Below, in pieces: positions 14,794 through 64,000 of a DNA stretch of 64,000 bases; the first letter of the stretch is position 1; every line of letters begins with the position of its first letter. The stretch is from NCBI GenBank assembly GCA_963924555.1, contig OZ004581.1, forward strand, positions 8,099,338 through 8,163,337, given 5' to 3'. The DNA comes from Crambe crambe (Eukaryota > Porifera > Demospongiae > Poecilosclerida > Crambeidae). The position numbers were made by a program, and so were the translations under genes. The notes beneath the pieces were generated by a model, which was given only the letters and a program-made list of their open reading frames with translations, was not told the DNA's origin and ran no database searches.

Positions 14794-33753
<18,960 letters not shown>

Positions 33754-38136: not shown

Positions 38137-41100
38137 CTACAGTTTGACATCTCGAATAGATTTAGCAAGTTGGTTCAGTCCAATATCTTCCAGCACAGAA
38201 ATCAGAATTTCCCAGGACACAGGTTGTCTCCCTTTCCCATGCAGCCATTCTTGAAACACTCGGTAGTTGATGTCTTGTGCGCTCTTCACGAGTTCTTTTT
38301 CAAGGGCACTGATGTGTGCCCCAGTCTGGTCTTCCAGGAGGAGAATCCCAAACTGACGATAATTTGTTCCCACTTCTTTAGTCAAGTCCACTTTAGAGTC
38401 TTGCAAAGGGAAGCAGATGATGTCCATCATGGTTGGGGGACTGCAAGAACCTGCAATTAAGGGTCCATGAAGTTTCACTCAGATAAGGGAGTCAATAGTC
38501 CACCTTCCTAATAGTCCATTTTATATTATAGTCCATCCAACCCACTTTGCCAGTGTATACTTTGAGGTACACACATGCTTGTACATGTACATTGTAGCTA
38601 TGACAACTGTAGTGATAGGCATTCCTGCCTATGATCGCATCATGCATTTGCAGCACATGCACACTGTGTTGAATTGTATTGCCAGCATAATATGAGTCAG
38701 AGACAGTTGTCAGCTCATCTAAGGCACTGGAAGAATGGTTCATATCAAAGAGTCAGTGAGATTATGTGACTGTGCAGTGAAATGAGAGCATGCACCTAGC
38801 TCTCCATTAAAGCCACTCTGCAATGTTCTATTCCTACCATTTGACCTCCCTAAAGAGACCACCTCCCTATTAAGCCTGGCCCATATTATATCTACTCACT
38901 CAAGGTGTCATCTTTAACTTGACTTGCTTCAACTGATTTCCATGTTGGATCACTCTGTGGACATACACATAACAACTAGTGTTAATTAAGTCTTTATAGC
39001 TACTTATAATAATTTAAACTTACATCAGGAGCACTGCTTGTTCCAAGGGGTTGAGGTTTGTTGTGGACTGAGTAGGTGCACTTTGCAACTGGTTCAGATG
39101 AAACATAATCACAATAAGCTGAGTGGTCCTGCATGGAATGAAAATACGACATGCATTCATTAGCTATAAAGAGATAATAAGGCATGACTCACTTGTCGAA
39201 TATTGAACCAAAATTTTTGGTGAACAGTTAACTTTGTCGGATTCCCCTTTTGACAAATGAGGGATGGGTTGGAAGTGGTGGGAGATGATGGAAGGACAAC
39301 AAAATGATCTTTCTGTGGGCAGCCTTCACATTTAAGTGCGAAATTGATGTCAATTCCTGGCAGCCATTTTTTGATGTCAGAAGCTGAGATTTGGAGTATT
39401 TCAAGAATATCATGACATGAACTCATGAAGGTGGGACATTTGCATGTCCTTGAATCAATACATTGTACGTCAATTCTCACGCTCAATTTTTCCTCTGTAA
39501 TGAAAAGTCTGTTCAGTGGCTGTCCAGGAGATCCAAACAAGAATTGGACTTGATTTCGATATATTTTTTCATTGACAGGTAAATAACATTTAGGGTCCTT
39601 TGACATGACTGCTGCCAGTTGAGTGAAGAAGCCTGGAGGCAAGTAGTTGGTGCTGAAAACAAGGTGCAATGGAACAGAGTTGATGGCAGTGCTAGTTGAG
39701 TGTGGATCACCAACTTTGGGTAAATAAGGTAGCATGGATGGAACAAAATACTTTCTACCAGGACCCTTATGCTTTTCAGTACTGATTCTAGCAATGATAA
39801 AAAAATGCTCCAATAGATCCACAATCTGTTGAGGTTGCAACTCTTTTTGAGCTCTCAATACTTTTTGGTATAATGATTCTACCAATACTCCATCCTCACG
39901 CAGCAACTTCCAGAGACGATCATTTCTACATTCTTCTCGGCCTTCCAGTGCTAATAAACGGGCTATTTGCTTGATGAGCCATTGAGGGTCAGCAATGACA
40001 CAAGACTTCAAGGTGGGGATGTCAGAGTAGTGAAAGAACACGGCAAGATCGTGATAAAATAAAAGAATGCTAGTAAGAGTATCTTCAGAGATCAAACATG
40101 CTCTACATAATTCCTTCACTTCCTCTAAAGGAACTACTGGCTTCTTTTGAGATCTGGCATATCTCTGGAACACTTTCTTGAACAGCAACCAAGTGATTGG
40201 AGTACGAATAGCTAAATCTTCTGTTGCAAAGTTGCTCACAGTTTTACGAATGAGCTTAAAGGTGTCATCTTCAAGCTCTCCCTTACCAGCTGTTGTATTA
40301 TCAATTATTGCTCCATCCAGAACAATGTCAGAAAAGGCTTTATCAGGAAACTCTGAAGAAAGCTTTTTAAGAATCTCATGCTTTCTTTCCTTGACAAAAA
40401 CATCATCACCGTGTGAACCGACTGGCAGAATGCGAGGATACATGGGGATTTCTTCATCTTCATCACTTTCTATATCGAAAAAGAGCCTCTTATTCAAGAG
40501 GGTAGCATGAATGGTGGATATCCACTGCACCATCAGGTCCAGTGTGGATATATCTTCCAGATGTTCAGTGGCTCTTCCTTTCAAATAGGTGAGTGAGCGA
40601 TACTGATCGTGGAGATCACGTCTTGCATCAAACATTAAAAGAAATAATGTCCTTGCTGTTAGGAATGCAGGAAGAATTTTAAGAAAGATCGGCTGGCTTC
40701 CACAGTCCCATACATGCAGATAAACTTCCTCTTCAATAAATGGGCCACCAGTGGTTATAACAGAAAGAATCTCTTTCAAAATCCCCTCAATTAATGGGTG
40801 GTCAAACTTGGGGGCAGTTTTACTAGGTTGACTTTTGCCACTGCTCACATCATTTCCTGTGGCAGAATTGGAATCTTTGTGGTCAAGAATAGTTTGTATC
40901 AACTGAGCAAGTCTATTGATTTCATCAGCATCGGTGATTTTAGTCCAGAATTTTCCTTCCTGGCTGCAGGCCCAGTAACTCTCAGTGGGCCTGGGGTGGA
41001 GGGAGAATGTGTCGGCCACCTGGGTGCTGTAGGATTCACAGGGAAGGGGCAGATTCATCAAGCCATTGAGTAGACTTCTCTTGCCCACACCTCCAGGACC

Positions 41101-41316
41101 AATAATCATCACACGAGCATATGAAACCTTCGTTTCACCCTGCCCCAGGGCATTCAGGTAATCCACTGAAAATCAAATGTACAAAATAATTAATATTTAT
41201 CAAAGTAAAAATATTACCTTCAGTCCTTGGTGCTCGAATCTCAATGAAAAAGAATTCAACATGGAAACGAAGTTGATTCACAAGTGAATTATGCACAAAA
41301 GACATACACTCACCAC
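38137..41316 (-). CDS. Roc-COR GTPase with C-terminal Death domain, 5' end not in window
   Basis: Exons in transcript order: 41316-41218, 41165-39193, 39128-39024, 38954-38900 and 38450-38137 (TAG at 38137-38139). Phases agree throughout, giving about 848 residues; the first exon is entered in phase 1, so coding exons lie further upstream. The Roc domain has P-loop GPGGVGKRSLL, switch motif WDCGSQP and a SHGD G4-like motif. The COR-like region follows (LLFYHDLAVFFHYSDIP, ADPQWLIKQIARLL). The last exon is a Death domain (TNYRQFGILLLED, INYRVFQEWLHGKG, LEDIGLNQLAKSIRD). Such proteins act as GTP-controlled scaffolds in stress, death or immune signalling and are expanded in sponges. The P-loop has Arg where Ser/Thr should bind magnesium. 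No ligand-binding N-terminus is seen; the microexon-like array lies directly upstream. Confidence 0.82.
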
Positions 41317-42454
41317 CTGAAAATATGAACACCACAACAGTATGAGATTCAGTGAGCTAGCATAGAGAGAAAGATCACTCTCAGGCATGACTCAATGTAT
41401 GTGTTATGATTAGCAACACATTTATTTTGGTGGATTGTAATTTGTAAGCTTGTCTAAGTGCTTTGTGGTAAGTATTACAGCTCCTGCATAAGTTGTGCTG
41501 AAGACTGAAAATCTTATTTTGCATGTATAATCAATATGTTGCTATAGTATTTATGGTGGTCATAGATATTGCTTCAGCTTTCTCAGTTTGGCAGTGATAG
41601 TCTCAAAGACAATATGAAGGGCTACGTTTCAAAACTTGAAGGGTTCCGACAGAATACTTCTGTGCACCAGTTCACAAAATGGCGGCCAGAAGTTCCCAGA
41701 TTATATTGAAGTTAGGAGGATTGTAGAGCAGGATTCAGATCTCATAATACTTTGAATGATTTTTATTAATTAATTTTGTTAATGTTTACTCCCTTCTATG
41801 ATAATTGTACTTGCCATATAAGGAGGAAGGAAAGCTATACACTTCCTTATAGAAAGAAAGATCCCATGGGGCATACACTTACTTTTCTCATGAGGTAAAA
41901 CTCCCTATTATAAAGAGGTAATTGCATTGTGCACTTGACTTATAATAAGGAGGAAGAAAACAATTTGCTTCCTTATAAGGAAGAAGAAGCTATACACTTC
42001 CTTAAAGAAGAAAAATCCTGTGGCAGGAAGAAGGATCAGTTTCCTGTAGCTTCTATTCTTAATATTTAAGATTATTTTTTTGTAGGCTCTCTTGCTGCTT
42101 TTTTAGACTGATCATGAAATCTTGAGCTTTATACCTTCTCCTCTTGTTGCATTCATGTTGGTTTTCTTGCTTAGTTAATTTCTCACTTATGGCTGTCAAG
42201 GTCATATGCATGAGTATAACTATTTACGCATGATACTAATAAGATTTATGTACAATGGAAAGATACATAGTTGCCTCGAGTACTACAAGGAATTTATTAT
42301 ATCGGGAAAACCATTGGTGAATGACCCCCCCCCCCCCCCCCCCACCCACCCCGCCCCAAAAAAGCCCTAGCCCTAGTCCTAGCAATTTGCCTTGGCATAT
42401 TAACAGTAAATACAGGATGTAAGTAATCATGTAGAGTGAGTCAATTCAGAATAA
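41317..42454 (-). other. Intron between array and first recognised Roc-COR-Death exon
   Basis: No exon is recognised. It carries recurring purine-rich words (AGGAGGAAGGAAAGCTATAC and relatives, 41820-42030), a 17-bp C run (42327-42343), and flanks the first array unit at 42462. If the array is spliced to the exon at 41316, this is the last intron before it. Confidence 0.5.
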
Positions 42455-44247
42455 CTTACCTTCTAAAGGAATGAAATTAAGCATCAAAATTTAATACAAA
42501 GGTGAAGGTACAACAGGGTAAGAGAAAAGACAGCATGTAAGTAACAATGCAGAGAGTGAGTACATTCAGAATAACTCACCTCCTAAAGGAATGAAATTAA
42601 ACATCAAAGTATGACAGTTAAGGTACGACAGGGAAAGAGAATAGACAGCATGTAAGTAACAAAATAGAGAGTGAGAATGTTCAGAATAACTTACATTCTG
42701 AAAGAATGAAATTAAGCATCAAAATACAACAGTGAAGTTACAGCATGTAAGTAACAATGCAGAGAGTATGTTCAGAATAACTTACTTGCTGAAATTAGGC
42801 ATTGAAATGCAACAGTGAAGGTATGACAGGGTAAGAAAATAGACAGCATGTAAGTAACAATTTAGAGAGTGAGTTGGTTCAGAATAACTTACCTCCTGAA
42901 GGAATGAAAAATACGACAGTGAAGGTACGACAGGGTAAAATAGACAGTATATAACAATGCAAAGAGTGAGTACGTTCAGAATAACTTACCAGCTGAAAGA
43001 ATGAAATTAGACATCGAAGTACGACAGTGAAGGTAAGACAGGGTAAGAGAATAGATAACATGTGAGTATGTTCAGAATGACTTACTTTCTGAAGGAATGG
43101 AATTAAGCATCAAAATACAACAGTGAAGTTACGACAGGATAAGAGAATAGACAGCATGTAAGTAACAATTTAGAAAGTGAGTTGGTTCAGAATAACTTAC
43201 CACCTGAAGGAATTAAAAATACGACAGCAAAGATACAACAGGGTAAAACAGTCTGTAACAATGCAAAGTGTGAGTACGTTCAGAATAACTTACCAGCTGA
43301 AACAATGAAATTAGACATCGAAGTACAACAGTGAAGGTATGACAGGGTAAGAGAATAGATAACATGTAAGAAAGAGTGAGTATGTTCAGAATGACTTACT
43401 TTCTGAAGGAATGGAATTAAGCATCAAAATACAACAGTGAAGTTACGACAGGGTAAGAGAATAGACAGCATGTAAATAACAATTTAGAAAGTGAGTTGGT
43501 TCAGAATAACTTACCACCTGAAGGAATTAAAAATACGACAGCAAAGGTACAACAGGGTAAAACAGTCTGTAACAATGCAAAGTGTGAGTACGTTCAGAAT
43601 AACTTACCAGCTGAAAGAATAATTAAGCATCGAAGTAAGACAGTGAAGGTATAACAGGGTAAGAGAAAAGACAGCATGTAAGTAACAATGCAGAGAGTCG
43701 GTCAGTTCAGAGTAACTTACCAACTGAAGGAATAAAATTAAGCAGCAAAATACGACAGTGAAGGTACGACAGGGTAAGAAAATAGACAGCATGTAAGTAA
43801 CAATGCAGAGAATCTGTCAGTTCAGAATAACTTACCTCCTGAAGGAATGAAATTAAGAATCAAAATACGACAGAAAAAGGACAGGGTAAGAGAATAGACC
43901 GAATGTAAGTAACAATGCAGAGAGTGAGTCAGTTCAAAAAAACTTACCGACTGAAGGAATCATCAAAATACGTAAGATAAGGTATAGACAGCATGTAAGT
44001 AACAATGCAGAGAGTGAATCTGTACAGAATAACTTACTTTCTGAAAGAATAAAATTAAGCATCGAAATACGACAGTGGAGGTACGAAGGGTAAGAGAATA
44101 GACAGCATGTAAGTAACAATGCAGAGAGTTGGTGAGCTCAAAGCAACTTACTTTCTGAAAGTGAAAGAATAAAATTAAGCATTGAAATACGACAGTGGAG
44201 GTACGATAGGGTAAGAGAATAGACAGCATGTAAGTAACAATGCAGAG

Positions 44248-45020
44248 CAGTGGCATAGCCAGGATTTAAGGTAAGGGGGTGACTTAGTGCCTGGAAAATT
44301 GTGTGCCACGCCCCCTAAAACGGCCACGCCCACTAACATTGACCTTGAATGTTGCATTGCGCTACAAAGTAGTCTGGCGGGCGATAACCCCAGGTAAAAA
44401 ATAGGGGTCTGGTGACATCGCTATATCGAACCAGTTTTTACCCCACGATTCTGGGGGGGAAGTTGTGGTATCATGAATATCATTAGCGCGACCAAAGAAT
44501 TCAATTAGCCATCAATTAGCGACTTCCGTATGGCTGAACACCTTAGTGAAGGTTGAGTCAGCGCTTGGTGTAGCGGCGGGTCGCAAAGATCTACAGTTGC
44601 AGGTTTCAGAGATGCTTTCGGGATCTTGGGATATGGGAAAAGCTTTTGCTATGGACATTCGACAAGATCTGCAGCTCTGGATCCCCTGAGCCATCTATAG
44701 TTTGTGCTATGACTGAAGAATAAGTTATGTGCATCGCACAGGCAGATGACCGTGGTTTTTTCCGTGACCGCGATGACATCCTCGATTCGCGCTGATCACA
44801 TTCCATTAGAACTGGTCCGGTATAGCGGTGTCACCAGATCCCTATTTTTTACCAGGGGTCATCACCCGCCAGACTAGCTACAAAGCTGTGAGGTTAGTGA
44901 TCAATCTAGCTTAGTCTTGCAGGCCTGCTAGCTATTAGATACACGTAGTGAAGGTTCAGCAGTTCAGCTAATAAAGGGAGTGATCGAGCACCCACTGCAC
45001 CCTGTCTGGCTACGCCACTG
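44248..45020. mobile_element. hAT-like MITE inserted in the array
   Basis: The left end CAGTGGCATAGCCAGG pairs with the right end CTGGCTACGCCACTG, and CAGAG is repeated on both flanks (44243-44247 and 45021-45025). The insertion splits one array unit. CAGTGGCGTAGCCAG-type ends are common in metazoan hAT derivatives. No transposase frame is visible. It contains a second, nested element. Confidence 0.75.
44372..44874. mobile_element. Nested TA-flanked foldback MITE
   Basis: The ~65-bp arms beginning GTCTGGCGGGCGATAACCCC and ending in its reverse complement (CATCACCCGCCAGAC) bracket a ~370-bp core, with TA on both sides (44370-44371 and 44875-44876). It lies inside the hAT-like MITE and is therefore younger than it. 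Confidence 0.75.
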
Positions 45021-46041
45021 CAGAGAGTGAGTACATTCAAAATAACTTACCTCCTGAAGGAATAAAATTAAGCATCAGAATAAGACAGTGAAGGTAAGAG
45101 AATAGACAGCATGTAAGTAACAACACAGAGAGTGAGTACGTTCAGAATAACTTACCTCCTAAAGGTATGAAATTAAGCATCAAAATAAGACAGTAAAGGT
45201 AGGACAGGGTAAGAGAATAGACAGCATGTAATTAACAATGCAGAGAGTAAATCTGTACAGAATAACTTACTTTCTGAAAGAATGAAATTAAGCATCGAAA
45301 TACGACAGTGAAGGTAAGACAGGGTAAGAGAATAGACAGCAAGTAAGTGACAATGCAGAGAGTGAGTCTGTACAGAATAACTTACTTTCTGAAGGAATTA
45401 AATTAAGCATCAAAATACGACAGTGAAGGTATGACAGGGTAAAAGAATAGACAGCATGTAATGCAGAGAGTAAGTACGTTCAGAATAATTTACCTCCTGA
45501 AGGAATAGAATTAAGCATCAGAATAAGACAGTGAAGATAAGAGAATAGACAGCATGTAAGTAACAACACAGAGAGTGAGTACGTTCAGAATAACTTACCT
45601 CCTAAAGGTATGAAATTAAGCATCAAAATAAGACAGTAAAGGTAGGACAGGGTAAGAGAATAGACAGCATGTAATTAACAATGCAGAGAGTAAATCTGTA
45701 CAGAATAACTTACTTTCTGAAAGAATGAAATTAAGCATCGAAATACGACAGTGAAGGTAAGACAGGGTAAGAGAATAGACAGCAAGTAAGTGACAATGCA
45801 GAGAGTGAGTCTGTACAGAATAACTTACTTTCTGAAGGAATTAAATTAAGCATCAAAATACGACAGTGAAGGTATGACAGGGTAAAAGAATAGACAGCAT
45901 GTAATGCAGAGAGTAAGTACGTTCAGAATAATTTACCTCCTGAAGGAATAGAATTAAGCATCAGAATAAGACAGTGAAGATAAGAGAATAGACAGCATGT
46001 AAGTAACAACACAGAGAGTGAGTACGTTCAGAATAACTTAC

Positions 46042-49000
46042 CTCCTAAAGGTATGAAATTAAGTATCAAAATAAGATAGTAAAGGTAGGACAGGGTAAGA
46101 GAATAGACAGCATGTAATTAATAATGCAGAGAGTAAATCTGTACAGAATAACTTACTTTCTGAAAGAATGAAATTAAGCATCGAAATACGACAATGAAGG
46201 TAAGACAGGGTAAGAGAATAGACAGCAAGTAAGTGACAATGCAGAGAGTGAGTCTGTACAGAATAACTTACTTTCTGAAAGAATGAAATTAAGCATCGAA
46301 ATACGACAGTGAAGGTAAGACAGGGTAAGAGAATAGACAGCAAGTAAGTGACAATGCAGAGAGTGAGTCTGTACAGAATAACTTACTTTCTGAAGGAATT
46401 AAATTAAGCATCAAAATACGACAGTGAAGGTATGACAGGGTAAAAGAATAGACAGCATGTAATGCAGAGAGTAAGTACGTTCAGAATAATTTACCTCCTG
46501 AAGGAATAGAATTAAGCATCAGAATAAGACAGTGAAGATAAGAGAATAGACAGCATGTAAGTAACAACACAGAGAGTGAGTACGTTCAGAATAACTTACC
46601 TCCTAAAGGTATGAAATTAAGCATCAAAATAAGACAGTAAAGGTAGGACAGGGTAAGAGAATAGACAGCATGTAATTAACAATGCAGAGAGTAAATCTGT
46701 ACAGAATAACTTACTTTCTGAAAGAATGAAATTAAGCATCGAAATACGACAGTGAAGGTAAGACAGGGTAAGAGAATAGACAGCAAGTAAGTGACAATGC
46801 AGAGAGTGAGTCTGTACAGAATAACTTACTTTCTGAAGGAATTAAATTAAGCATCAAAATACGACAGTGAAGGTATGACAGGGTAAAAGAATAGACAGCA
46901 TGTAATGCAGAGAGTAAGTACGTTCAGAATAATTTACCTCCTGAAGGAATAGAATTAAGCATCAGAATAAGACAGTGAAGATAAGAGAATAGACAGCATG
47001 TAAGTAACAACACAGAGAGTGAGTACGTTCAGAATAACTTACCTCCTAAAGGTATGAAATTAAGTATCAAAATAAGATAGTAAAGGTAGGACAGGGTAAG
47101 AGAATAGACAGCATGTAATTAATAATGCAGAGAGTAAATCTGTACAGAATAACTTACTTTCTGAAAGAATGAAATTAAGCATCGAAATACGACAATGAAG
47201 GTAAGACAGGGTAAGAGAATAGACAGCAAGTAAGTGACAATGCAGAGAGTGAGTCTGTACAGAATAACTTACTTTCTGAAAGAATGAAATTAAGCATCGA
47301 AATACGACAGTGAAGGTAAGACAGGGTAAGAGAATAGACAGCAAGTAAGTGACAATGCAGAGAGTGAGTCTGTACAGAATAACTTACTTTCTGAAGGAAT
47401 TAAATTAAGCATCAAAATACGACAGTGAAGGTATGACAGGGTAAAAGAATAGACAGCATGTAATGCAGAGAGTAAGTACGTTCAGAATAATTTACCTCCT
47501 GAAGGAATAGAATTAAGCATCAGAATAAGACAGTGAAGATAAGAGAATAGACAGCATGTAAGTAACAACACAGAGAGTGAGTACGTTCAGAATAACTTAC
47601 CTCCTAAAGGTATGAAATTAAGCATCAAAATAAGACAGTAAAGGTAGGACAGGGTAAGAGAATAGACAGCATGTAATTAACAATGCAGAGAGTAAATCTG
47701 TACAGAATAACTTACTTTCTGAAAGAATGAAATTAAGCATCGAAATACGACAGTGAAGGTAAGACAGGGTAAGAGAATAGACAGCAAGTAAGTGACAATG
47801 CAGAGAGTGAGTCTGTACAGAATAACTTACTTTCTGAAGGAATTAAATTAAGCATCAAAATACGACAGTGAAGGTATGACAGGGTAAAAGAATAGACAGC
47901 ATGTAATGCAGAGAGTAAGTACGTTCAGAATAATTTACCTCCTGAAGGAATAGAATTAAGCATCAGAATAAGACAGTGAAGATAAGAGAATAGACAGCAT
48001 GTAAGTAACAACACAGAGAGTGAGTACGTTCAGAATAACTTACCTCCTAAAGGTATGAAATTAAGTATCAAAATAAGATAGTAAAGGTAGGACAGGGTAA
48101 GAGAATAGACAGCATGTAATTAATAATGCAGAGAGTAAATCTGTACAGAATAACTTACTTTCTGAAAGAATGAAATTAAGCATCGAAATACGACAATGAA
48201 GGTAAGACAGGGTAAGAGAATAGACAGCAAGTAAGTGACAATGCAGAGAGTGAGTCTGTACAGAATAACTTACTTTCTGAAAGAATGAAATTAAGCATCG
48301 AAATACGACAGTGAAGGTAAGACAGGGTAAGAGAATAGACAGCAAGTAAGTGACAATGCAGAGAGTGAGTCTGTACAGAATAACTTACTTTCTGAAGGAA
48401 TTAAATTAAGCATCAAAATACGACAGTGAAGGTATGACAGGGTAAAAGAATAGACAGCATGTAATGCAGAGAGTAAGTACGTTCAGAATAATTTACCTCC
48501 TGAAGGAATAGAATTAAGCATCAGAATAAGACAGTGAAGATAAGAGAATAGACAGCATGTAAGTAACAACACAGAGAGTGAGTACGTTCAGAATAACTTA
48601 CCTCCTAAAGGTATGAAATTAAGCATCAAAATAAGACAGTAAAGGTAGGACAGGGTAAGAGAATAGACAGCATGTAATTAACAATGCAGAGAGTAAATCT
48701 GTACAGAATAACTTACTTTCTGAAAGAATGAAATTAAGCATCGAAATACGACAGTGAAGGTAAGACAGGGTAAGAGAATAGACAGCAAGTAAGTGACAAT
48801 GCAGAGAGTGAGTCTGTACAGAATAACTTACTTTCTGAAGGAATTAAATTAAGCATCAAAATACGACAGTGAAGGTATGACAGGGTAAAAGAATAGACAG
48901 CATGTAATGCAGAGAGTAAGTACGTTCAGAATAATTTACCTCCTGAAGGAATAGAATTAAGCATCAGAATAAGACAGTGAAGATAAGAGAATAGACAGCA

Positions 49001-49440
49001 TGTAAGTAACAACACAGAGAGTGAGTACGTTCAGAATAACTTACCTCCTAAAGGTATGAAATTAAGTATCAAAATAAGATAGTAAAGGTAGGACAGGGTA
49101 AGAGAATAGACAGCATGTAATTAATAATGCAGAGAGTAAATCTGTACAGAATAACTTACTTTCTGAAAGAATGAAATTAAGCATCGAAATACGACAATGA
49201 AGGTAAGACAGGGTAAGAGAATAGACAGCAAGTAAGTGACAATGCAGAGAGTGAGTCTGTACAGAATAACTTACTTTCTGAAAGAATGAAATTAAGCATC
49301 GAAATACGACAGTGAAGGTAAGACAGGGTAAGAGAATAGACAGCAAGTAAGTGACAATGCAGAGAGTGAGTCTGTACAGAATAACTTACTTTCTGAAGGA
49401 ATTAAATTAAGCATCAAAATACGACAGTGAAGGTACGACA
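46042..49440 (-). repeat. Higher-order repeat of the array, 1001-bp period, nine units per copy
   Basis: A block of nine units starting at 46042, 47043, 48044 and 49045 repeats with a fixed 1001-bp period. The 285-bp frame at 46059 recurs with an identical translation at 47060, 48061 and 49062. Within a block the triplets, by rising coordinate, are GAG, AAA, AAA, AAA, GAG, GAG, AAA, AAA, GAG. Near-identity points to very recent unequal exchange, or to an assembly duplication. Confidence 0.85.
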
Positions 49441-52400
49441 GGGTAAAAGAATAGACAGCATGTAATGCAGAGAGTGATTACGTTCAGAATAACTTACCTC
49501 CTGAAGGAATAGAATTAAGCATCAGAATAAGACAGTGAAGGTAAGAGAATAGACAGCATGTAAGTAACAACACAGAGAATGAGTACGTTCAGAATAACTC
49601 ACCTCCTAAAGGTATGAAATTAAGCATCAAAATAAGACAGTAAAGGTAGGACAGGGTAAGAGAATAGACAGCATGTAAGTAACAATGCAGAGAGTGAATA
49701 AATACAGAATAACTTACTTTCTGAAAGAATAAAATTAAGCATCGAAATACGACAGGGTAAGAGAATAGACAGCATTTAAGTAACAATGCAGAGAGTGAAT
49801 CAGTGCAGAATAACTTACTTTCTGAAAGAATAAAATTAAGCATTGAAATACGACAGGGTAAGAGAATAGACAGCATGTAAGTAACAATGCAGAGAGTCAG
49901 TCAGTTCAGAATAACTTACCTCCTGAAGGAATGAAATTAAGAATCAAAATACGTAGGACAGGGTAAGAGAATAGACAGCATGTAATTGAGAGTGAGTACA
50001 TTCAGAATAACTTACCTCCTAAAGGTATGAAATTAAGCATCAAAATAAGACAGTAAAGGTAGGACAGGGTAAGAGAATAGACAGCATGTAAGTAACAATG
50101 CAGAGAGTCAGTCAGTTCAGAATAACTTACCTCCTGAAGGAATGAAATTAAGAATCAAAATATGTAGGACAGGGTAAGAGAATAGACAGCATGTAAGTAA
50201 CAATGCAGAGAGTACGTTCAAAATAACGTACCTCCTGAAGGACAGCATGTAAGTAACGATGCAGAAAGTGAGTACGTTCAAAATAACGTACCTCCTGAAG
50301 GAATAGAATTAAGCATCAGAATAAGACAGTGAAGGTAAGAGAATAGACAGCATGTAAGTAACAACGCAGAGAGTGAGTACGTTCAGAATAACTTACCTCC
50401 TGAAGGTATGAAATTAAGCATCCAAATAAGACAGTAAAGGTAGGACAGGGAAAGAGAATAGACAGCATGTAATTAACAATGCAGAGAGTAAATCTGTACA
50501 GAATAACTTACTTTCTGAAAGAATGAAATTAAGCATCGAAATACGACAGTGAAGATAAGACAGGGTAAGAGAATAGACAGCATGTAAGTGACAATGCAGA
50601 GAGTGAGTCTGTACAGAATAACTTACTTTCTGAAGGAATAAAATTAAGCATTGAAATACAACAGTGAAGGTAAAGGAATAGATGGCATGTAATGCAGAGA
50701 GTGAGTACGTTCAGAATAACATACCTCCTGAAGGAATGAAATTAAGCATCAAAATAAGACAGTGAAGGTAGGACAGGGTAAGAAAATAGACAACATGTAA
50801 GTAACAATGCAGAGAGTGAATCTGTACAGAATAACTTACTGTCTGAAGGAATGAAGTTTAACATCATTACGACAGTGAAGATAGGACAGGGTAAGAGAAT
50901 AGAGAGCATGTAAATAACAATGCAGAGAGTGAGTACGTTCAGAATAACTCACCTCCTGAATTAGAGCATCAAAACACGACAGTGAAGGTATAACATGGTA
51001 AGAAAATAGTAAGTAACAATGCAGAGAGTGAGCCAGTTCAGAGTAACTTACAAACTGAAGGAATAAAATTAAGCATCAAAATACGACAGTGAAGGTACGA
51101 CAGGGTAAAAGAATAGACAGCATGTAAGTAACAGTGCAGAGAGTCAGTCAATTCAGAGTAACTTACGATCTGAGAAAATGAAATTAAGCATCAAAATACG
51201 ACGGTGAAGATATGACAGGGTATGAGAATAGACAGCATGTAACAATGCAGAGAGTGAGTCAGTTCAAAAAACTTACCGACTGAAGGAATCATCAAAATAC
51301 AATGAAGGTAAGAGAATAGACAGCATATAAGTAACAATGCCGAGTGATTTGGTTCAAAAAAAACTTACCGACTGAAGGAATCATCAAAATATAACAGTGA
51401 AGGTAAGACAGTTTAAAAGAATAGACAGCATGTAAGTAACAATGCATAGAGTGAATCAGTTCAGAGTAACTTACCAACTGAATGAATACAATTAAGGATA
51501 AAAATACGACAGTGAAGATATGACAGGGTAAGCGAATAAACAGCATGTAAGTAACAATGCAGAGAGTGAGTCTGTACAGAATAACTTACTTTCTGAAGGA
51601 ATAAAATTAAGCATCGAAATACGACAGTGAAGGTATGACAGGGTAAAAGAATAGACGGCATGTAATGCAGAGAGTGAGTACGTTCAGAATAACTTACCTC
51701 CTGAAGGAATGAAATTAAGCATCAAAATACAGCAGGTAAGATAGGACAGGATAAGAGAATAGACAGCATGTAAGTAACAATGCAGAGAGTGTGACAGTTC
51801 GAAAAAACTTACCGACTGAAGGAATCATCAAAATATAACAGTGAAGTTAAGACAGGGTAAAAGAATAGACAGCATGTAAGTAATAATCCAGAGAGTGAAT
51901 CAGTTTAGAGTAACTTACCAACTGAATGAATAAAATTAAGCATAAAAACACGACAGTGAAGGTAGGAAAGGGTAAGAGAATATACAGCATATAAATAACA
52001 GTGCAGAGAGTCAGTCAATTCAGAGTAACTTACAATCTGAGGGAATGAAATTAAGCATCAAAATACGACAGTGAAGGTATAACAGGGTATGAGAATAGAC
52101 AGAATGTAAGTAACAATGCAGAGAGTGAGTCAGTTCAAAAAACTTACCGACTGAAGGAATCATCAAAATATAACAATGAAGGTAAGAGAATAGACAGCAT
52201 GTAAGTAACAATGCCGAGTGATTCGGTTCAAAAAAAACTTACCGACTGAAGGAATCATCAAAATACAACAGTGAAGGTAAGACAGTTTAAGAGAATAGAC
52301 AGCATGTAAGTAACAATGCCGAGAGTAAGTCAGTTCAGAGTAACTTACCAACTGAATGAATATAATAGAGCAACAGTGAAGATATGACAGGGTAATAGAA

Positions 52401-55400
52401 TTGACAGCATGTAAGAAAAAATGCAGAGAGTCATTCAGTTCAAAATAGCTTACCGACTGAAAAAATTAAGCATCGAAATACGACAGTGAAGGTACGACAG
52501 GGTAAGAGAATAGACAGCATGTAAGTAACAATGCAGAGAGTCAGTCAGTTTAGAGTAACTCACAAACTGAAGGAATAATATTAAGCATTGAAATACGACA
52601 GTGAAGTTATGACAGGGTAAGGGAATAGTAAGAAACAATGCAGAGTCAGTCAGTTCAGAGTAACTTACCTTCTGAAGGAAAGTATCAAAATACGACAGTG
52701 AAGGTACGACAGGGTAAGATAATAGACAGCATGTAAGTAACAATGCAGAGAGTTAGTCAGTTTAGAATAACTTACCTCCTGAAGGAATGAACAAAATATG
52801 ACAGGGAAGGTAGGACAGGATATGAGTATAGACAGCATGTAAGTAACAATGCAGAAAGTGAGTTAAATTTTAAAAACTTACTGACTGAAGGAATCATCAA
52901 AATACAACAGTGAAGGTAGGACAGGGTAAGAGAATAGACAGCATGTAAGTAACAATGCAGAGAGTGAATTTGTATAGAATAACGTACTTTCTGAAAGAAT
53001 AAAATTAAGCATCGAAATATGACAATGAAATAACGACAGGGGAGCATGTTAGTAACAATGCAAAGAGTGAGTATGTTCAGAATAACTTACCGGCTGAAGG
53101 AAAGCATCGAAATACGACAGTGAAGTTACGACATGGACAGTATGTAAGTAACAATGCAGAGAGTGAGTCAGTTAAGAGTAACTTACCAACTGAAGGAATA
53201 AAATTAAGCATCAAAATACGACAGTGAAGGTACGACAGGGTAAGAGAATACACAGCATGTAAGTAACTATGCAGAGAGTGAGTCAGTTCAGAGTAACTTA
53301 CAATCTAAGGGAAAGAAATTAAGCATTAAAATACGACAGTGAAGGTAAGATATGGTAAGATAATAAAGTAACGTGAGTCAGTTTAGAATAACTTACCTCC
53401 TGAAGGAATGAAATTAAGCATCAAAATAGACAGTGAAAATAGGACAGGGTAAGAGAATAGAGAGCATGTATGTAACAGGATAACTTACTTTCTGAAGGAA
53501 GCATCAAAATACGACAGTGAAGGTAGAACAGGGTAAGAGAATAGACAGTATGTAAGTAAAAATGCAGAGAGTCATTCAGTTCAAAATAACTTACCGACTG
53601 AAAAAAAAAGAAATTAAGCATCAAAATACGACAGTGAAGGTATGACAGAGTAAGAGAATAGACAGCATAATAAGTAAAAATGCAGAGAGTCATTCAGTTC
53701 AAAATAACTTACCGACTGGAAAAATGAAATTAAGCATCAAAATACGACAGTGAAGGTGCGACAGGGTAAGAGAATAGACAGCATGTAAGTAACAATGCAG
53801 AGAGTCAGTCAGTTCAGAGTAACTTACCTTCTGAAGGAATAAAATTAAGCATCAAAATAATTATGACAGTAAAGGTACGACAGGGTAAGAGAATAGACAG
53901 CATGTAAGTAACAATGCAGAGAGTTAGTCAGTTTAGAATAATTTACCTCCTGAAGGAATGAACAAAATATGACAGGGAAGGTAGGACAGGATATGAGTAT
54001 AGACAGCATGTAAGTAATAATGCAGAAAGTGAGTTAGATTTTAAAAACTTACTGACTGAAGGAATCATCAAAATACAACAGTGAAAGTACGACAGGGTAA
54101 GGAAATAGACAGCATGTAAGTAACAATGCACAGAGTGAGTACGTTCAGAATAACTTACTTCCTGAAGGAATGAAATTAAGCATCAAAATAAGATAGTGAA
54201 GGTAGGACAGGGTAAGAGAATAGACAGCATGTAAGTAACAATGCAGAGGGTGAGTATGTTCAGAATAACTTACTTCCTGAAGGAATGAAATTAAGCATCA
54301 AAATACGATAGTGAAGGTTACCAGGATAGGGTAAGAGAATAGACATTATGTAAGTAACAATGCAGGGAGTGAATTTGTATAGAATAACGTACTTTCTGAA
54401 AAAATAAAATTAAGCATCGAATTACGATAGTGAAATAACAACATTGGAACATGTTAGTAACAGTGCAAAGAGTGAGTATATTCAGAATAATTTACCGGCT
54501 GAAGGAGAGCATCGAAATACGACAGTGAAGGTACGACATGGACAGTATGTAAGTAACAATGCAGAGAGTGAGTCAGTTAAGAGTAACTTACCAACTGAAG
54601 GAATAAAATTAAGCATCAAAATATGACAGTGAAGGTACGACAGGGTAAAAGAATACACAGCATGTAAGTAACTATGCAGAGAGACAGTCTGTTTAGAATA
54701 ATTTACCTCCTGAAGGAATGAAATTAAGCATCAAAATACAACAGTGAAGTTAGGACGAGATAAGAGAATAGACAGCATGCAAGTAACAATGCAAAGAGTG
54801 AGTCAATTTTTAAAAAACTTACCGACTGAAGGAATCATCAAAATACAACAGTGAAGGTAAGACAGGGTGAGAGAATAGACAGCATGTAAGTAACAATGCA
54901 GAGAGTCAGTCAGTTCAGAGTAACTTACAAACTGAAGGAATAATATTAAGCATTAAAATACGACAGTGAAGTTATGACAGGGTAAGAGAATAGACAGCAT
55001 GTAAGTAACAGTGCCGAGTCAGTCAATTCAGAGTAACTTACCTTCTGAAGGAAAAAAATTAAGCATCAAAATACAACAGTGAAAGTACGACAGGGTAAGA
55101 GAATAGACAGCTTGTAAGTAACAATGCAGAGAGTGAGTCAGTTCAGGATAACTTACCTTCTAAAGGAATGAAATTAAGCATCGAAATACGACAGTGAAGG
55201 TACGACAGGGTAAGAGAATAGACAGCATGTAAGTACCAATGCAGAGAGTGAGTCAGTTCAAAGTGACTTACATACTGAAGTAATGAAATTAAGCATCAAA
55301 ATACGACAGTGAAGGTACGGCAGGGTAAGAGAATAGACATCATGTAAGTAACATTGCAGAGAGTGAGTCAGTTCAGAATAACTTACTCGCTGAATGATGA

Positions 55401-57349
55401 AATTAAGCATCAAAATACGACGACAGGGTAAGAGAATAGACAGCATGTAAGTAACAATGCAGAGAGTGAGTTAGTTCAAAAAAACTTACCAACTGAAGGA
55501 ATCATCAAAATACAACAGTGAAGGTAAGACAGGGTAAGAGAATAGACAGCATGTAAGTAACAATACAGAGAGTGAGTCGGTTCAGAGTAACTTACCATCT
55601 AAGGGAATGAAATTAAGCATCAAAATACGACAGTGAAGGTAAGACATGGTAAGATAATAAAGTAACATGAGTCAGTTTAGAATAACTTACCTCCTGAAGG
55701 AATGAAATTAAGCATCAAAATAGTGAAAATAGGACAGGGTAAGAGAATAGAGAGCATGTATGTAACAGAATAACTTACTTTCTGAAGGAATAAAATTAAG
55801 CATCAAAATACGACAGTGAAGGTAGAACAGGGTAAGAGAATAGACAGCATGTAAGTAATAATGCAGAGAGTGAGTCAGTTCGAAATAACGTACCGACTGA
55901 AGGAATCATCAAAATACAACAGTGAAGGTAAGACATGGTAAGATAATAGACAGCATGTAAGTAACAATGCAGAGAGTGAGTCTGTACAGAATAACTCACT
56001 TTCTGAAGGAATAAAATTAAGCATCAAAATACGACCATGAAGATAGAACAGGGTAAGAGAATAGACAGCATGTAAGTAACACTGCAGAGAGTAATTCAGT
56101 TTAGAATAACTTACCGACTGAAGGAATAATCAAAATATAACAGTGAAGGTAAGACAGGGTAAGAGAATACACAGCATGTAAGTAACAATGCAGAGAGTCA
56201 GTCAGTTTAGAATAATTTACCTCCTGAAGGAATGAAATTAAACATCAAAATACAACAGTGAAGTTAAGACAAGGGACAGCATGTAAGTAACTTACCGACT
56301 GAAGGAATCATCAAAATACAACAGTGATGGGTAAGAGAATAGACAGCATGTAAGTAACGATGCAGAGAGTGAGTCTGTACAGAATAACTTACTTTCTGAA
56401 GGAATAAAATTAAGCATTAAAATACGACAGTGAAGGTAGAACAAGGTAAGTGAATAGACAGCATGCAAGTAACAATGCAGAGAGTGAGTCAGTTCGAAAT
56501 AACTTACCAACTGAAGGAATCATTAAAATATGACAGTGAAGGAAAGACAGGGTAAGTGAATAGACAGCATGTAAGTAACAATGAAGAGAGTGAATCAGTT
56601 CAGAGTAACTTACCAACTGAAGGAATAAATTAAGCATCAAAATACGACAGTGAAGGTACGACAGGGTAAGAGAATAGACAGCATATAAGTAACAATGCAG
56701 AGAGTCTGTCATTTCAAAATAACTTACCTCCTGAAGGAATGAAATTAAGCATCAGAATACAACAGTGAAGGTAGGACAGGATAACAGTATAGACAGCATA
56801 TAAGTAACAATGCAGAGAGTGAGTTAGTTTTAAAAAACTCACCGACTGAAGGAATCATTAAAATATAACAGTGAAGGTAAGACAGGGTAAGAGAATGCAA
56901 GTAACAATGCAGAGAGTTGGTGAGATTGGAGTAACTTACCAACTGAAGGAATAAAATTAAGCATCATAACAATCAATGCAGAGAGTGAGTAAGTTCAGAA
57001 TAACTTACCTCCAGGAGGAATGAAATTAAGCATCAAAATATGACGGTAAAGTTATGATAGGGTAAGAGAATAGACAGCATGTAAGTATTAATGCATTGAG
57101 TGAGTACGTTCAGAATAATTTACCTCCTGAAGAAATGAAATTAAGCATCAAAATAATAAAGTGAAGGTAGGACAGGGTAAGAGAATAGACAGGATGTAAG
57201 TAACAATGCAGAGAGTGAGTACGTTCAGAATAACTTACCTCCTGAAGGTATGAAATTAAGCATCAAAATACGACAGTGAAGGTAGGACAGGGTAAGAGAA
57301 TAGACAGTATGTAACAATGCAGAGAGTGAATTTGTATAGAATAACGTAC

Positions 57350-60300
57350 TTTCTGAAAGAATAAAATTAAGCATCGAAATACGACAGTGAAATAACGACA
57401 GGGGAGCATGTTAGTAACAATGCAAAGAGTGAGTATGTTCAGAATAACTTACCGGCTGAAGGAGAGCATCGAAATACGAAAGTGAAGGTACGACAAGGTA
57501 AGAGGATAAACAGTATGTAAGTAATAATGCAGAGAGTGAGTCAGTTCAGAGTAACTTACCAACTGAAGGAATAAAATTAAGCATCAAAATACGACAGTGA
57601 AGGTACGACAGGGTAAGAGAATACACAGCATATAAGTAACAATGCAGAGAGTGAGTCAGTTTAGAATAATTTACCTCCTGAAGGAATGAAATTAAGCATC
57701 AAAGTACAACAATGAAGTTAGGACGAAGTAAGAGAATAGACAGCATGTAAGTAACAATGCAAAGAGTGAGTCAATTCAAAAAAACTTACCGACTGAAGGA
57801 ATCATCAAAATATAACAGTGAAGGTAAGACAGGGTAAGAGAATAGACAGCATGTAAGGAACAATGCAGAGAGTGAGTCAGTTCAGAGTAACTTACAATCT
57901 GAGGGAATGAAATTAAGCATCAAAATATGACAGTGAAGGTAAGACATAGTAAGATAATAGAGAGCATGTAAGTAATGATGCAGAGAGTGAGTCAGTTTAG
58001 AATAACTTACCTCCTGAAGGAATGAAATTAAGTATCAAAATATACAGTGAAAATAGGACAGGGTAAGAGAATAGACAGCATGTATATAACAGAATAACTT
58101 ACTTTCTGAAGAAATAAAATTAAGCATCAAAATATGATAGTGAAGGTAGAACAGGGTAAGAGAATAGAGAGCATGTAAGTGTAACAATGCAGAGAGTTAG
58201 TCAGTTTGAAATAACTTACCGACTGAAGGAATCATCAAAATACAACAGTGAAGGTAAGACATGGTAAGATAATAGAGAGCATGTAAGTAATGATGCAGAG
58301 AGTGAGTCTGTACAGAATAGCTTACTTTCTGGAGGAATAAAATTAAGCATCAAAATACGACAGTGAAGGTAGAATATGGTAAGAGAATAGACAGCATGTA
58401 AGTAACAATGCAGAGAATGAGTCAGTTCGAAATAACTTACAAACTGAAAGAATCATCAAAATATGACAGTGAAGGTACGACAGGGTAAGAGAATAGACAG
58501 CATGTAAGTAACAATGCAGAGAGTGAATCAGTTCAGAGTAACTTACCAACTGAAGGAATAAAATTAAGCATCAAAATACGACAGTGAAGGTACGACAGGG
58601 TAAGAGAATAGACAGCATGTAAGTAACAATGGAGAGAGTCTGTCATTTCATAATAACTTACCTCCTGAAGGAATGAAATTAAGCATCAGAATACAACAGT
58701 GAAGGTAGGACAGGATAACAGTATAGACAGCATATTAGTAACAATGCAGAGAGTGAGTTAGTTCAAAAAACTCACCGACTGAAGGAATCATTAAAATATA
58801 ACAGTGAAGGTAAGACAGGGTAAGAGAATGCAAGTAACAATGCAGAGAGTTGGTGAGTTTGGAGTAACTTACCAACTGAAGGAATAAAATTAAGCATCAT
58901 AACAATCAATGCAGAGAGTGAGTAAGTTCAGAATAACTTACCTCCAGGAGGAATGAAATTAAGCATCAAAATATGACGGTAAAGTTATGATAGGGTAAGA
59001 GAATAGACAACATGTAAGTATTAATGCATTGAGTGAGTACGTTCAGAATAATTTACCTCCTGAAAAAATGAAATTAAGCATCAAAATAATAAAGTGAAGG
59101 TAGGACAGGGTAAGAGAATAGACAGATGTAAGTAACAATGCAGAGAGTGAGTACGTTCAGAATAACTTACCTCCTGAAGGTATGAAATTAAGCATCAAAA
59201 TATAACAGTGAAGGTAGGACAGGGTAAGAGAATAGACAGTATGTAAGTAACAATGCAGAGAGTGAATTTATATAGAATAACGTACTTTCTGAAAGAATAA
59301 AATTAAGCATCGAAATACGACAGTGAAATAACGACAGGGGAGCATGTTAGTAACAATGCAAAGAGTGAGTATGTTCAGAATAACTTACCGGCTGAAGGAG
59401 AGCATCGAAATACGAAAGTGAAGGTACGACATGGTAAGAGGATAAACAGTATGTAAGTAATAATGCAGAGAGTGAGTCAGTTCAGAGTAACTTACCAACT
59501 GAAGGAATAAAATTAAGCATCAAAATACGACAGTGAAGGTACGACAGGGTAAGAGAATACACAGCATATAAGTAACAATGCAGAGAGTGAGTCAGTTTAG
59601 AATAATTTACCTCCTGAAGGAAGCATCAAAATACAACAGTGAAGTTAGGACGAAGTAAGAGAATAGACAGCATGCAAGTAACAATGCAAAGAGTGAGTCA
59701 ATTAAAAAAAATTTACCGACTGAAGGAATCATCAAAATATAACAGTGAAGGTAGACAGGGTAAGAGAATAGACAGCATGTAAGGAACAATGCAGAGAGTG
59801 AGTCAGTTCAGAGTAACTTACAATCTGAGGGAATAAAATTAAGCATCAAAATATGACAGTGAAGGTAAGACATGGTAAGATAATAGAGAGCATGTAAGTA
59901 ACAATGCAGAGAGTGAGTCAGTTTAGAATAACTTACCTCCTGAAGGAATGAAATTAAGCATCAAAATATACAGTGAAAATAGGACAGGGTAAGAGAATAG
60001 ACAGCATGTATATAACAGAATAACTTACTTTCTGAAGGAATAAAATTAAGCATCAAAATATGATAGTGAAGGTAGAACAGGGTAAGAGAATAGAGAGCAT
60101 GTAAGTAACAATGCAGAGAGTTAGTCAGTTCGAAATAACTTACCGACTGAAGGAATCATCAAAATACAACAGTGAAGGTAAGACATGGTAAGATAATAGA
60201 GAGCATGTAAGTAATGATGCAGAGAGTGAGTCTGTACAGAATAACTTACTTTCTGGAGGAATAAAATTAAGCATCAAAATACGACAGTGAAGGTAGAATA

Positions 60301-61200
60301 GGGTAAGAGAATAGACAGCATGTAAGTAACAATGCAGAGAGTGATTCAGTTCAGAGTAACTTACCAACTGAAGAAATGAAATTAAGCATCAAAATACAAC
60401 AGTGAAGTTAGGACAAGGTAAGAGAATAGACATCATGTAAGTAAAATGCAGAAAGTGAGTCAGTTCAAAAAAACTTACCGACTGAAGGAATAATCAAAAT
60501 ACAACAGTAAAGGTAAGACAGGGTAAGAGAATATACAGCATGTAAGTAACGATGCAGAGAGTGAGTCTGTACAGAATAACTTACTTTCTGAAGGAATAAA
60601 ATTAAGCATCAAAATATGACAGTGAAGGTAGAACAGGGTAAGAGAATAGACAGCATGCAAGTAACAATGCAGAGAGTGAGTCAGTTCGAAATAACTTACC
60701 AACTGAAGGAATCATTATTATATGACAGTGAAGGTAAGACAGGGTAAGAGAATAGACAGCATGTAAGTAACAATGCAGAGAGTGAATCAGTTCAGAGTAA
60801 CTTACCAACTGAAGGAATAAAATTAAGCATCAAAATACGACAGCAAAGGTACGACAGGGTAAGAGAATAGACAGCATGTAAGTAACAATGCAGAGAGTCT
60901 GTCATTTCAAAATAACTTACCTCCTGAATTAAGGAATGAAATTAAGCATCAGAATAAGGTAGGACAGGATAAGAGTATAGACAGCATATAAGTAACAATG
61001 CAGAGAGTGAGTTAGTTAAAAAAACTCACCGACTGAAGGAATCATCAAAATACAACAGTGAAGGTAAGACAGGGTAAGAGAATGCAAATAATAATGCAGA
61101 GAGTTGGTTAGTTTTGAGTAACTTACCATCTGAAGGAATAAAATTAAACATCATAACAATCAATGCAGAGAGTGAATAAGTTCAGAATAACTTACCTCCT
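57350..61200 (-). repeat. Second-order block, about 1.94 kb, repeated with drift
   Basis: From 57350 the triplet order by rising coordinate codes K, P, L, E, S, I, E, K, S, K. The same order starts again at 59286. Less complete versions (K, P, L, E, S) start at 54393, 61418 and 62127. Unit-specific flanks move with the triplets, so whole blocks were duplicated and then diverged. Confidence 0.7.
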
Positions 61201-64000
61201 GAAGAAATGAAATTAAGTATCAAAATAAGACAGTGAAGGTAGGACAGGGTAAGAGAATAGACAGCATGTAAGTAATAATGCATAGAGTGAGTACGTTCAG
61301 AATAACTTACCTCCTGAATATTTGAAATTAAGCATCAAAATATGACAGTGAACGTACAACAGGGTAAGAGAATAGACAGTAACAATGCAGAGAGTGAATT
61401 TGTATAGAATAACGTACTTTCTGAAAGAATAAAATTAAGCATCGAAATACGACAGTGAAATAACGACAGGGGAGCATGTTAGTAACAATACAAAGAGTGA
61501 GTATGTTCAGAATAACTTACCGGCTGAAAGAGAGCATCGAAATACGACAGTGAAGGTACGACATGGTAAGAGGATAAACAGTATGTAAGTAACGATGCAG
61601 AGAGTGAGTCAGTTCAGAGTAACTTACCAACTGAAGGAATAAAATTAAGCATCAAAATACGATAGTGAAGGTATGAGAGGATAAGAGAATATACAGCATG
61701 TAAGTAAAAATGCAGAGAGTCAGTCAGTTCAAAATAACTTACCTCCTGAAGGAATGAAATTAAGGATCAAAATACAACAGTGAAGTTAGGACAAGGTAAG
61801 AGAATAGACAGCATGTACGTAACAATACAGAGAGTGAGTTAGTCCAAAAAAACTTACCGACTGAAGAAATCATCAAAATTCAACAGTGAATTCAACAGCA
61901 AGTATAAGTAACAATGTAGAGAGTCGGTGAGTTTGGAGTAACTTACCAACTGAAGGAATAAAATTAAGTATTATAACAATGCAGAGAGTGAGTACGTTCA
62001 GAATAACTTACCTCCTGAAGGAATGAAATTAAGCATCAAAATAAAACAGTGAAGGTAGGACAGGGTAAGAGAATAGACAGTATGTAATTAACAATGCAGA
62101 GAGTGAATCTGTACAGAATAACTTACTTTCTGAAAGAATAAAATTAAGCATCAAAATACGACAGTGAAAATACGACAGGGTAAGAGAATAGACAGCATGT
62201 TAGTAACAATGCAAAGAGTGAGTATGTTCAGAATAACTTACCGGCTGAAGGAGACCATCGAAATACGACAGTTAATGTATGACATGGTAAGAGGATAGAC
62301 AGCATGTAAGTAACAATGCAGAGAGTGAGTCAGTTCAGAGTAACTTACCAACTGAAAGAATAAAATTAAGCATCAAAATACAACAGTGAAGGTATGACAG
62401 GGTAAGAGAATAGACAGCATGTAAGTAACAATACAGATAGTGAGTCAATCCAGGATAACTTACCCACTGAAGGAATGAAATTAATCATCAAAATACGACA
62501 GTCAAGGTACGACAGGGTAAGAGAATAGATAGCATGTAAGTAACAATGCAGAGAGTAAGTCAGTTCAAAATAACTTACTAACTGAAGGAATCATCAAAAT
62601 ATGACAGTGAAGGTAAGACAGGGTAAGAGAATAGACATCATGTAAGTAACAATGCAGAGAGTCAGTCCGTTTAGAATAGCTTACCTCCTGAAGGAATGAA
62701 ATTAAGCATTGAAATACGACAGTGAAGGTACAGCAGGGTAAGAGAATAGACAGCATGTAAGTAACAATGCAGATAGTGAGTCAATCCAGGATAACTTACC
62801 CACTGAAGGAATGAAATTATTCATCAAAATACGACAATCAAGGTACGACAGGGTAAGAGAATAGATAGCATGTAAGTAACGATGCAGAGAGTGAGTCTGT
62901 ACAGAATAACTTACTTTCTGAAGGAATAAAATTAAGCATCAAAATAGGACAGTGAAGGTACGACAGGGTAAGAGAATAGACAGCATATAAGTAACAATGC
63001 AGAGATTGAGTCAGTTCAAAAAAACTTACCGACTGAAGGAATCATAAAAATACAACAGTGAAGGTAAGACAGGGTAAGAGAATAGACAGCATGTAAGTAA
63101 CAATGCAGAGAGTGAATCTGTACAGAATAACTTACTTTCTGAAGGAATAAAATTAAAATACGACAGTGACAGGGTAAGAAAATAGACAGCAAGTCACAAT
63201 GCTGAGAGTGAGTACGTTCAGAATAACTTACCTCCTGAAGGAATGAAATTAAGCATCAAAATACGACAGTGAACGTACAACAGGGTACAATTATAGACAG
63301 CATGTAAGATTGAGTCAGTTCAAAAAAACTTACCAACTGAAGGAATCATAAAAATACAACAGTGAAGGTAAGACAGGGTAAGAGAATAGACAGCATGTAA
63401 GTAACAATGCAGAGAGTGAATCTGTACAGAATAACTTACTTTCTGAAGGAATAAAATACAGTGACAGGGTAAGAAAATAGACAGCAAGTCACAATGCTGA
63501 GCGTGAGTACGTTCAGAATAACTTACCTCCTGAAGGAATGAAATTAAACATCAGAATACGACAGTGATAGTATTACAGGGTAAGAGAATAGACAGCATGT
63601 AAGCAACAATGCATAGAGTGAGTCAGTTCAGAATAACTTACTTCCTGAATGAATAAAATTAAGCATCAACATAAGACAGTGAAGGTACGACAGAGTAAGA
63701 GAATAGACAGCAAGTAAGTAACAATTCAGAGAGTGAGTCAGTTCAGAATAACTTACCCGCTGAAGGAATAAAATTAAGCATCAGTGAAAGTATGACAGGG
63801 TAAGAGTATAGACAGCATGTGAGTAACAATGCAGAGAGTCAGTCAGTTCGAAATAACTTACCCGCTGAAGAGTTAAAATTATGCATCAAAATACGACAGT
63901 GAAAGTATGACAGGGTAAGAGAATAGTCAGCATGTAAGTAGCTAATAGTGCTGAAATTATTTGACTTACATCCTTAAGGATCTAATTGGTATGACAGGGT

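Follow-up and report, generated by a model that had tools for sequence, protein, structure and literature searches.

Long rows of three-base splice cassettes beside ROCO genes of the sponge Crambe crambe: a candidate gene layout with one codon per exon

The window analyzed here, a stretch of 64,000 nucleotides (nt) from the sponge Crambe crambe (assembly GCA_963924555.1, contig OZ004581.1, forward-strand positions 8,099,338 to 8,163,337), contains on its minus strand a gene of the ROCO type and, upstream of it, a long array of repeated units that each present a splice acceptor, three bases and a splice donor. Between array and ROCO gene lies the first predicted exon after the array, which we call exon X. 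The window sits on the 9.57-Mb contig 1 (C1) of an assembly of 119 contigs (143 Mb), all of which was searched. Scanning the minus strand for TTCAG-NNN-GTAAGTTATTCTGAAC with up to 6 mismatches identified 192 acceptor-NNN-donor cassettes in the window; AG and GT are both intact in 190 of these, and CTG replaces CAG in the other two. Units are mostly spaced 115 or 106 bases apart, and the array introns, measured in four arrays, are most frequently 112 nt long (205 of 391). The upstream end of the array lies about 160 bases past the window, at C1:8163497. A GAT unit whose acceptor is CTTAAG comes on top of the 192. The figure of about 194 cassettes given by an earlier sequence-only reading of this DNA is correct.

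Donors and acceptors were located independently in six arrays, one of them partial. The distance between them was exactly 3 bases in 392 pairs and -5 in two pairs, the latter being alternative acceptor calls. Within the mismatch limit, no acceptor was identified for 39 donors and no GT donor for 10 acceptors; AG-NNN-GT is still visible in nearly all of the unpaired sites listed (at most 14 per array), and four units among the unpaired acceptors listed carry a GC donor instead of GT after the triplet (L014 and L018; arrays B and C). Exact matches to the core AACTTACNNNCTGAA number 3,606 in the whole genome (3,306 + 300); the reversed control has 51 (23 + 28). A related pattern, in which the acceptor arm is longer and the sites stand 4-12 bases apart, occurs once, and its control not at all; the two patterns differ in length, and the spacings compared genome-wide are 3 and 4-12. 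As far as these counts reach, the triplet length of three is fixed.

We counted 752 triplets, comprising 739 from the 12 arrays of at least 20 units and 13 from partial loci. None is a stop, compared with 102 expected from independent base columns. Stops are likewise absent from 95 further triplets at ten other loci that had initially been left out (847 read in total, 0 stops), and from the 11 units dropped from the counted arrays for lacking AG or GT. When the triplets of the 12 arrays are joined in order (739 codons), frames 0, 1 and 2 contain 0, 19 and 22 stops, respectively. Among the 3,606 cores genome-wide, YTA (TAG or TAA) occurs seven times, always as TAG (four in the reversed control), and TGA twice (none in the control); expressed by class, TAA accounts for 0 of 315 NAA and TGA for 2 of 288 NGA triplets. 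The TAG core at C1:8424775 (L015) is a single unit-like sequence outside any array.

The triplets are also more variable than the sequence next to them. Entropy at their three positions is 1.92, 1.74 and 1.36 bits, versus 0.08-0.37 bits at the adjoining TTC and AAGTT positions, a difference that is partly built in, as the splice motif was the search key and AG and GT were fixed by the filter. Beyond the motif, single positions upstream reach up to 1.45 bits. Comparing units pair by pair is cleaner in this respect. In pairs of units from different genes (942 closest non-identical pairs), the spacers diverge by 1.4% and 53% of triplet sites differ; in different-gene pairs with identical spacers, the triplets differ in 68% of 282 pairs. 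Longer gapped array alignments in the 85-95% identity bins gave 65-67% differing triplet sites and about 6-12% for the remainder. This pattern fits homogenised introns whose codons are held apart by long-term selection. As a separate observation, bases 17-18 of the array intron (counting the donor G as 1) have entropies of 1.72 and 1.47 bits, a variability like that of the triplets.

Upstream of the array, outside the window (C1:8164592-8164732), a putative first exon with an ATG (exon 1) most often reads MSDKKGEENEETEKKATSSRAEPYF or near. Its length is 66, 75 or 78 nt, and all 16 distinct copies read (38 matches) end in phase 0; judged by eye, it is charged, with neither a hydrophobic core nor an evident signal peptide. 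The codons E and D come first in all 16 array starts that a script found outside the window, among which L041 equals L042 over the ten codons read, and the window array opens with E and D as well, its D unit being the one with acceptor CTTAAG. We also considered a long form of the first array exon, of 97-100 nt (EVSHSRLTLLYLASC...), which is open in all 15 aligned copies; we read this stretch as intron because most differences between copies, by eye, change the amino acid. Copies of exon 1 have single TAG cores some 6-11 kb upstream, at C1:8424775, 8636865, 8668433 and 9004731; of these the first lies outside any array, and the last three were judged by position only. The 3-base spacing, the single stop-free frame, the hypervariable triplets flanked by conserved splice sites and the in-phase exon 1 strongly support the earlier proposal that the cassettes are single-codon microexons, with the triplets as codons read in frame 0.

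Downstream, the array frame would end in exon X. Frame 0 meets a stop within this exon in all 19 distinct copies with a recognised start (23 matches); 18 of them share the position of that stop, and the remaining copy has it further on. In four of the 23 contig-1 matches, which align in their second half only, the start of exon X was not recognised. Exon X is 89-112 nt long with no fixed remainder on division by 3, and the ROCO frame is offset from it by 0, 1 or 2 across copies, some of which have stops or shifts in the ROCO frame. Read straight into the Roc exon, frame 0 stops at the fourth codon in five aligned copies. An ATG in the ROCO frame follows the last in-frame stop within exon X in 16 of the 19 copies. 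The neighbouring gene itself matches two Pfam domains, Roc at 30 bits (cut-off 27) and COR-A at 58.3 bits (cut-off 35.3); another Death-domain open reading frame (ORF) near the Roc-COR genes (L011:2059-2370) scores 25.9 bits. One or two stops interrupt the Roc-COR match in 8 of the 23 contig-1 copies (e.g. C1:9054956-9056845), which may be broken genes or mark exon ends.

Because frame 0 stops inside exon X, the array product would be separate from the Roc-COR protein, and the array most likely makes a short protein of its own instead of extending its neighbour. The sequence-only reading had the array peptides attached to the signalling protein; this does not agree with the frame-0 stop in 19 of 19 copies or with an exon X-Roc frame relation that varies by copy, and fusion as the default was rejected on these frames. 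Since the exon X donor and the short intron after it are kept in 19 copies, the array frame and the ROCO frame are perhaps carried on a shared transcript. The Roc-COR genes and the Death-domain ORFs nearby at most suggest a role in recognition or defence.

Table 1. Features at the array locus. Positions are those of the window unless prefixed C1; exons and introns are predicted.
Feature	Position	Strand	Remarks
First array unit, GAG	C1:8163497, just past window end	-	codon E
Array of putative 3-nt exons	42444..63992	-	unit = intron GTAAGTTATTCTGAAC...TTAATTTCATTCCTTCAG, most often 112 nt, plus one triplet
Second array codon, GAT (D)	63970..63972	-	unit CTTAAG-GAT-GTAAGT, additional to the 192
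Tandem 1001-bp blocks, nine units each	45093..49755	-	three neighbour comparisons: 24, 0 and 0 differences
Insertion with inverted ends GTGGCATAGCCAGG ... CTGGCTACGCCAC	44250..45020	.	within one array intron; adjacent cassettes intact
Last 3-nt exon, AAG (K)	42460..42462	-	
Exon X, first exon after array	41218..41316	-	frame 0 = VVSVCLLCIIHL, then stop (TGA, 41278-41280)
Intron from exon X to Roc-COR exon, 52 nt	41166..41217	-	52-53 nt in all 19 copies read
Roc-COR exon of ROCO gene	39160..41165	-	not in array frame
Death-domain-like ORF of ROCO gene	38137..38478	-	20 bits, under Pfam cut-off 22.6

The window array belongs to a family. Exon X has 23 matches on contig 1, all between 8.14 and 9.37 Mb. 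Exon 1 has 38 matches there, of which 36 fall between 8.16 and 9.37 Mb; the other two, at 6.64-6.71 Mb, are oppositely oriented. Among all 38, two extend over just 53 bases. By position, the 23 contig-1 Roc-COR copies adjoin the exon X matches, and upstream of most of the latter there is an exon 1 match. Cassette rows number 22 to 191 per gene in the 12 arrays with at least 20 units. Arrays are also found beside a ROCO cluster on contig 11 that is about 44% identical in protein to that of contig 1. Five introns of one contig-11 array agree with the contig-1 intron at 18 of 18 positions of the donor end, 12-13 of 14 of the acceptor end and 45-50 of 80 in the middle. By this alignment the array introns of the two contigs are homologous, the ends needed for splicing having been conserved across clusters and the middle having diverged. 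The contig-11 pattern was counted 2,147 times at 3 mismatches, a number that may overlap the contig-1 type and is not additive. The 801 bases before the contig-11 ROCO gene yielded nothing recognisable as exon X. The contig-11 triplets shown (including L058) mostly end in T and those of contig 1 mostly in G or A; the donor does not differ.

Within the window, an 899-base gap in the cassette series (44159-45058) corresponds to the insertion inside one intron listed in Table 1, which is probably a DNA transposon. The 1001-bp blocks with 0 differences reflect either very recent duplication or an assembly effect. Elsewhere in the window, an AG dinucleotide repeat occupies 329 bases (31225-31553; 99% matches).

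We assign a probability of roughly 0.78 to the interpretation that the array forms the central coding part of a gene, a variable region written one codon per exon; that its triplets are spliced and translated we infer from the sequence of one genome. Besides the built-in uniformity of the motif, several observations weigh against it. As many as 28 of the 64 triplets, not the stops alone, are unseen among the 752, including CAG (31 expected), GCG (28), GTA (16) and ACG (15). Avoidance of CAG and TAG could reflect the creation of a second acceptor, which leaves TAA and TGA as the only clean cases of stop avoidance, and giving equal weight to all three stops is weakened by the absence of CAG. Units are related by duplication, and the triplets are therefore not independent draws. 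Same-gene pairs with identical spacers differ at the triplet in 13% of 251 pairs, and one recent segmental duplicate has changed at 4 of 51 triplet sites versus 75 of 1,852 others, about twice the rate; as a case for accelerated triplet change in recent duplicates these last counts are weak. Because of both results, the hypervariability would be long-term and not the outcome of instant hypermutation. Hydrophobic periodicity was discarded as proof of a helix, since the joined peptides were more periodic than shuffled ones (P<0.05) in just 2 of the 11 arrays.

Other explanations draw on the same evidence. The array might be an intronic minisatellite with splice-like motifs, removed whole as one intron: its repeats are tandem and homogenised, with 1001-bp blocks separated by 0 to 24 differences, and the unseen triplets go beyond stops. 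We consider this very unlikely, given a single stop-free frame, a fixed length of 3 and cassette ends kept across two clusters despite a diverged intron middle. Homogenisation would moreover have left the triplets as uniform as the rest of the repeat, whereas they are saturated with differences and the spacers are not (53% against 1.4%). If the triplets are exons after all, each transcript could take a different subset of them, so that one gene would give many peptides. Units do carry similar splice sites, any subset keeps frame 0, and with up to 191 junctions mixed products would be expected from skipping errors alone. The sequence, however, bears no sign of a regulated selection among units; joining all of them in genomic order produces no stop, and each array start read begins with E-D. 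The data fit near-complete inclusion at least as well as a combinatorial repertoire, which we regard as possible but rather unlikely.

The remaining alternatives concern the ROCO gene. The array peptide could be fused to the Roc-COR protein through a distal acceptor, GTGGTGAG/TG, in exon X or through another, unseen exon. From that acceptor, phase 0 would reach the ROCO frame in stop-free exon X copies of 96 and 99 nt, but the lack of a fixed remainder in exon X length, the offset that changes by copy and the copies with stops or shifts make fusion improbable. The array frame could also act as an upstream frame controlling ROCO translation on the same transcript, in a manner compatible with an array protein of its own. 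Consistent with this, the 19 copies read all have the exon X donor and a 52-53-nt intron before the Roc exon, and 16 of them the ROCO-frame ATG; control alone, however, needs no stop-free, diverse codons in such number, and we think such a role unlikely, if less so than fusion.

We know of no described system with such a one-codon-per-exon gene layout. Clusters of the Dscam1 type consist of long exons duplicated in tandem and used in a mutually exclusive manner; tandem duplication of exons is shared, but here the exons would be single codons with no known exclusion. In recursive (ratchet) splicing at zero-length exons, an adjacent acceptor and donor permit stepwise removal of an intron; the adjacency recurs in the array, but three stop-free bases would remain at each step. 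Rows of 3-nt exons appear in none of the titles and abstracts among the matches listed from open-licence PMC, a set with preprints outside it.

The micro-exon genes (MEGs) of Schistosoma come nearest; they have exons of 6-81 bp (3-81 in the abstract), mostly 15 bp, and introns of 0.1-5 kb; their products are secreted and variable, with diversity proposed to arise from splicing and gene duplication (PMC10526429). The sponge genes resemble them as a family with rows of very short exons and high variability, here read from sequence, and many consecutive short exons are present at the sequence level (22 to 191 cassettes in 12 arrays). They differ in that the exons are 3 nt, below the main MEG size of 15 bp and the 6-81 bp range; the introns, mostly of 112 nt, closely resemble one another; exon 1 reads as charged and shows, by eye, no clear equivalent of the N-terminal signal peptide of MEGs; and the arrays adjoin ROCO genes. 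Among microexons (spliced exons of 30 nt or less), single ones of 3 nt, each adding one residue, are reported for Ncam, Drosophila troponin T and homothorax (PMC8042270, PMC7392893). The equivalence of one 3-nt exon and one residue is the same here, as are flanking splice sites and consistent phase (AG/GT in 190 of 192 cassettes, exon 1 phase 0 in 16 of 16), but those exons are described as isolated, whereas the sponge arrays form rows of 22 to 191 with hypervariable triplets.

Under the one-codon-per-exon interpretation, exon 1 would end between codons, each 3-nt exon would then contribute one residue, and exon X would supply about 12 hydrophobic residues and the stop. Because the introns are short and the acceptor and donor of a unit lie too close for simultaneous occupation, we infer that splicing is stepwise: the triplets would probably be added one by one, each step joining a triplet and recreating the adjacent donor for the next. 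With all units joined, the arrays read would each give a separate protein, about 60 to 230 residues long, possibly encoded on the ROCO transcript. Skipping should be tolerated because every combination of 3-nt exons keeps the frame. Since the repeats of about 115 bp that house the codons closely resemble one another, codons could be gained, lost or rearranged by unequal crossing-over or conversion with the frame preserved; this would account for the strong differences between paralogues. The product is possibly a variable recognition or defence protein. More tentatively, and with doubt outweighing confidence, we suggest that in this large multigene family thousands of codon cassettes, each of about 115 bp, are reshuffled by recombination in the germline, and that stepwise splicing with partial skipping turns them into a cloud of in-frame variants, a single-residue repertoire generator beside ROCO genes.

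If the triplets are exons, some 3,500 three-base exons exist in one genome, far more than the isolated cases known to us, in genes of a kind that standard annotation and short-read alignment would probably miss. Such a layout, if true, would test how the spliceosome joins exons below its footprint nearly 200 consecutive times, and would show how variable proteins can evolve by recombination that always leaves the reading frame intact.

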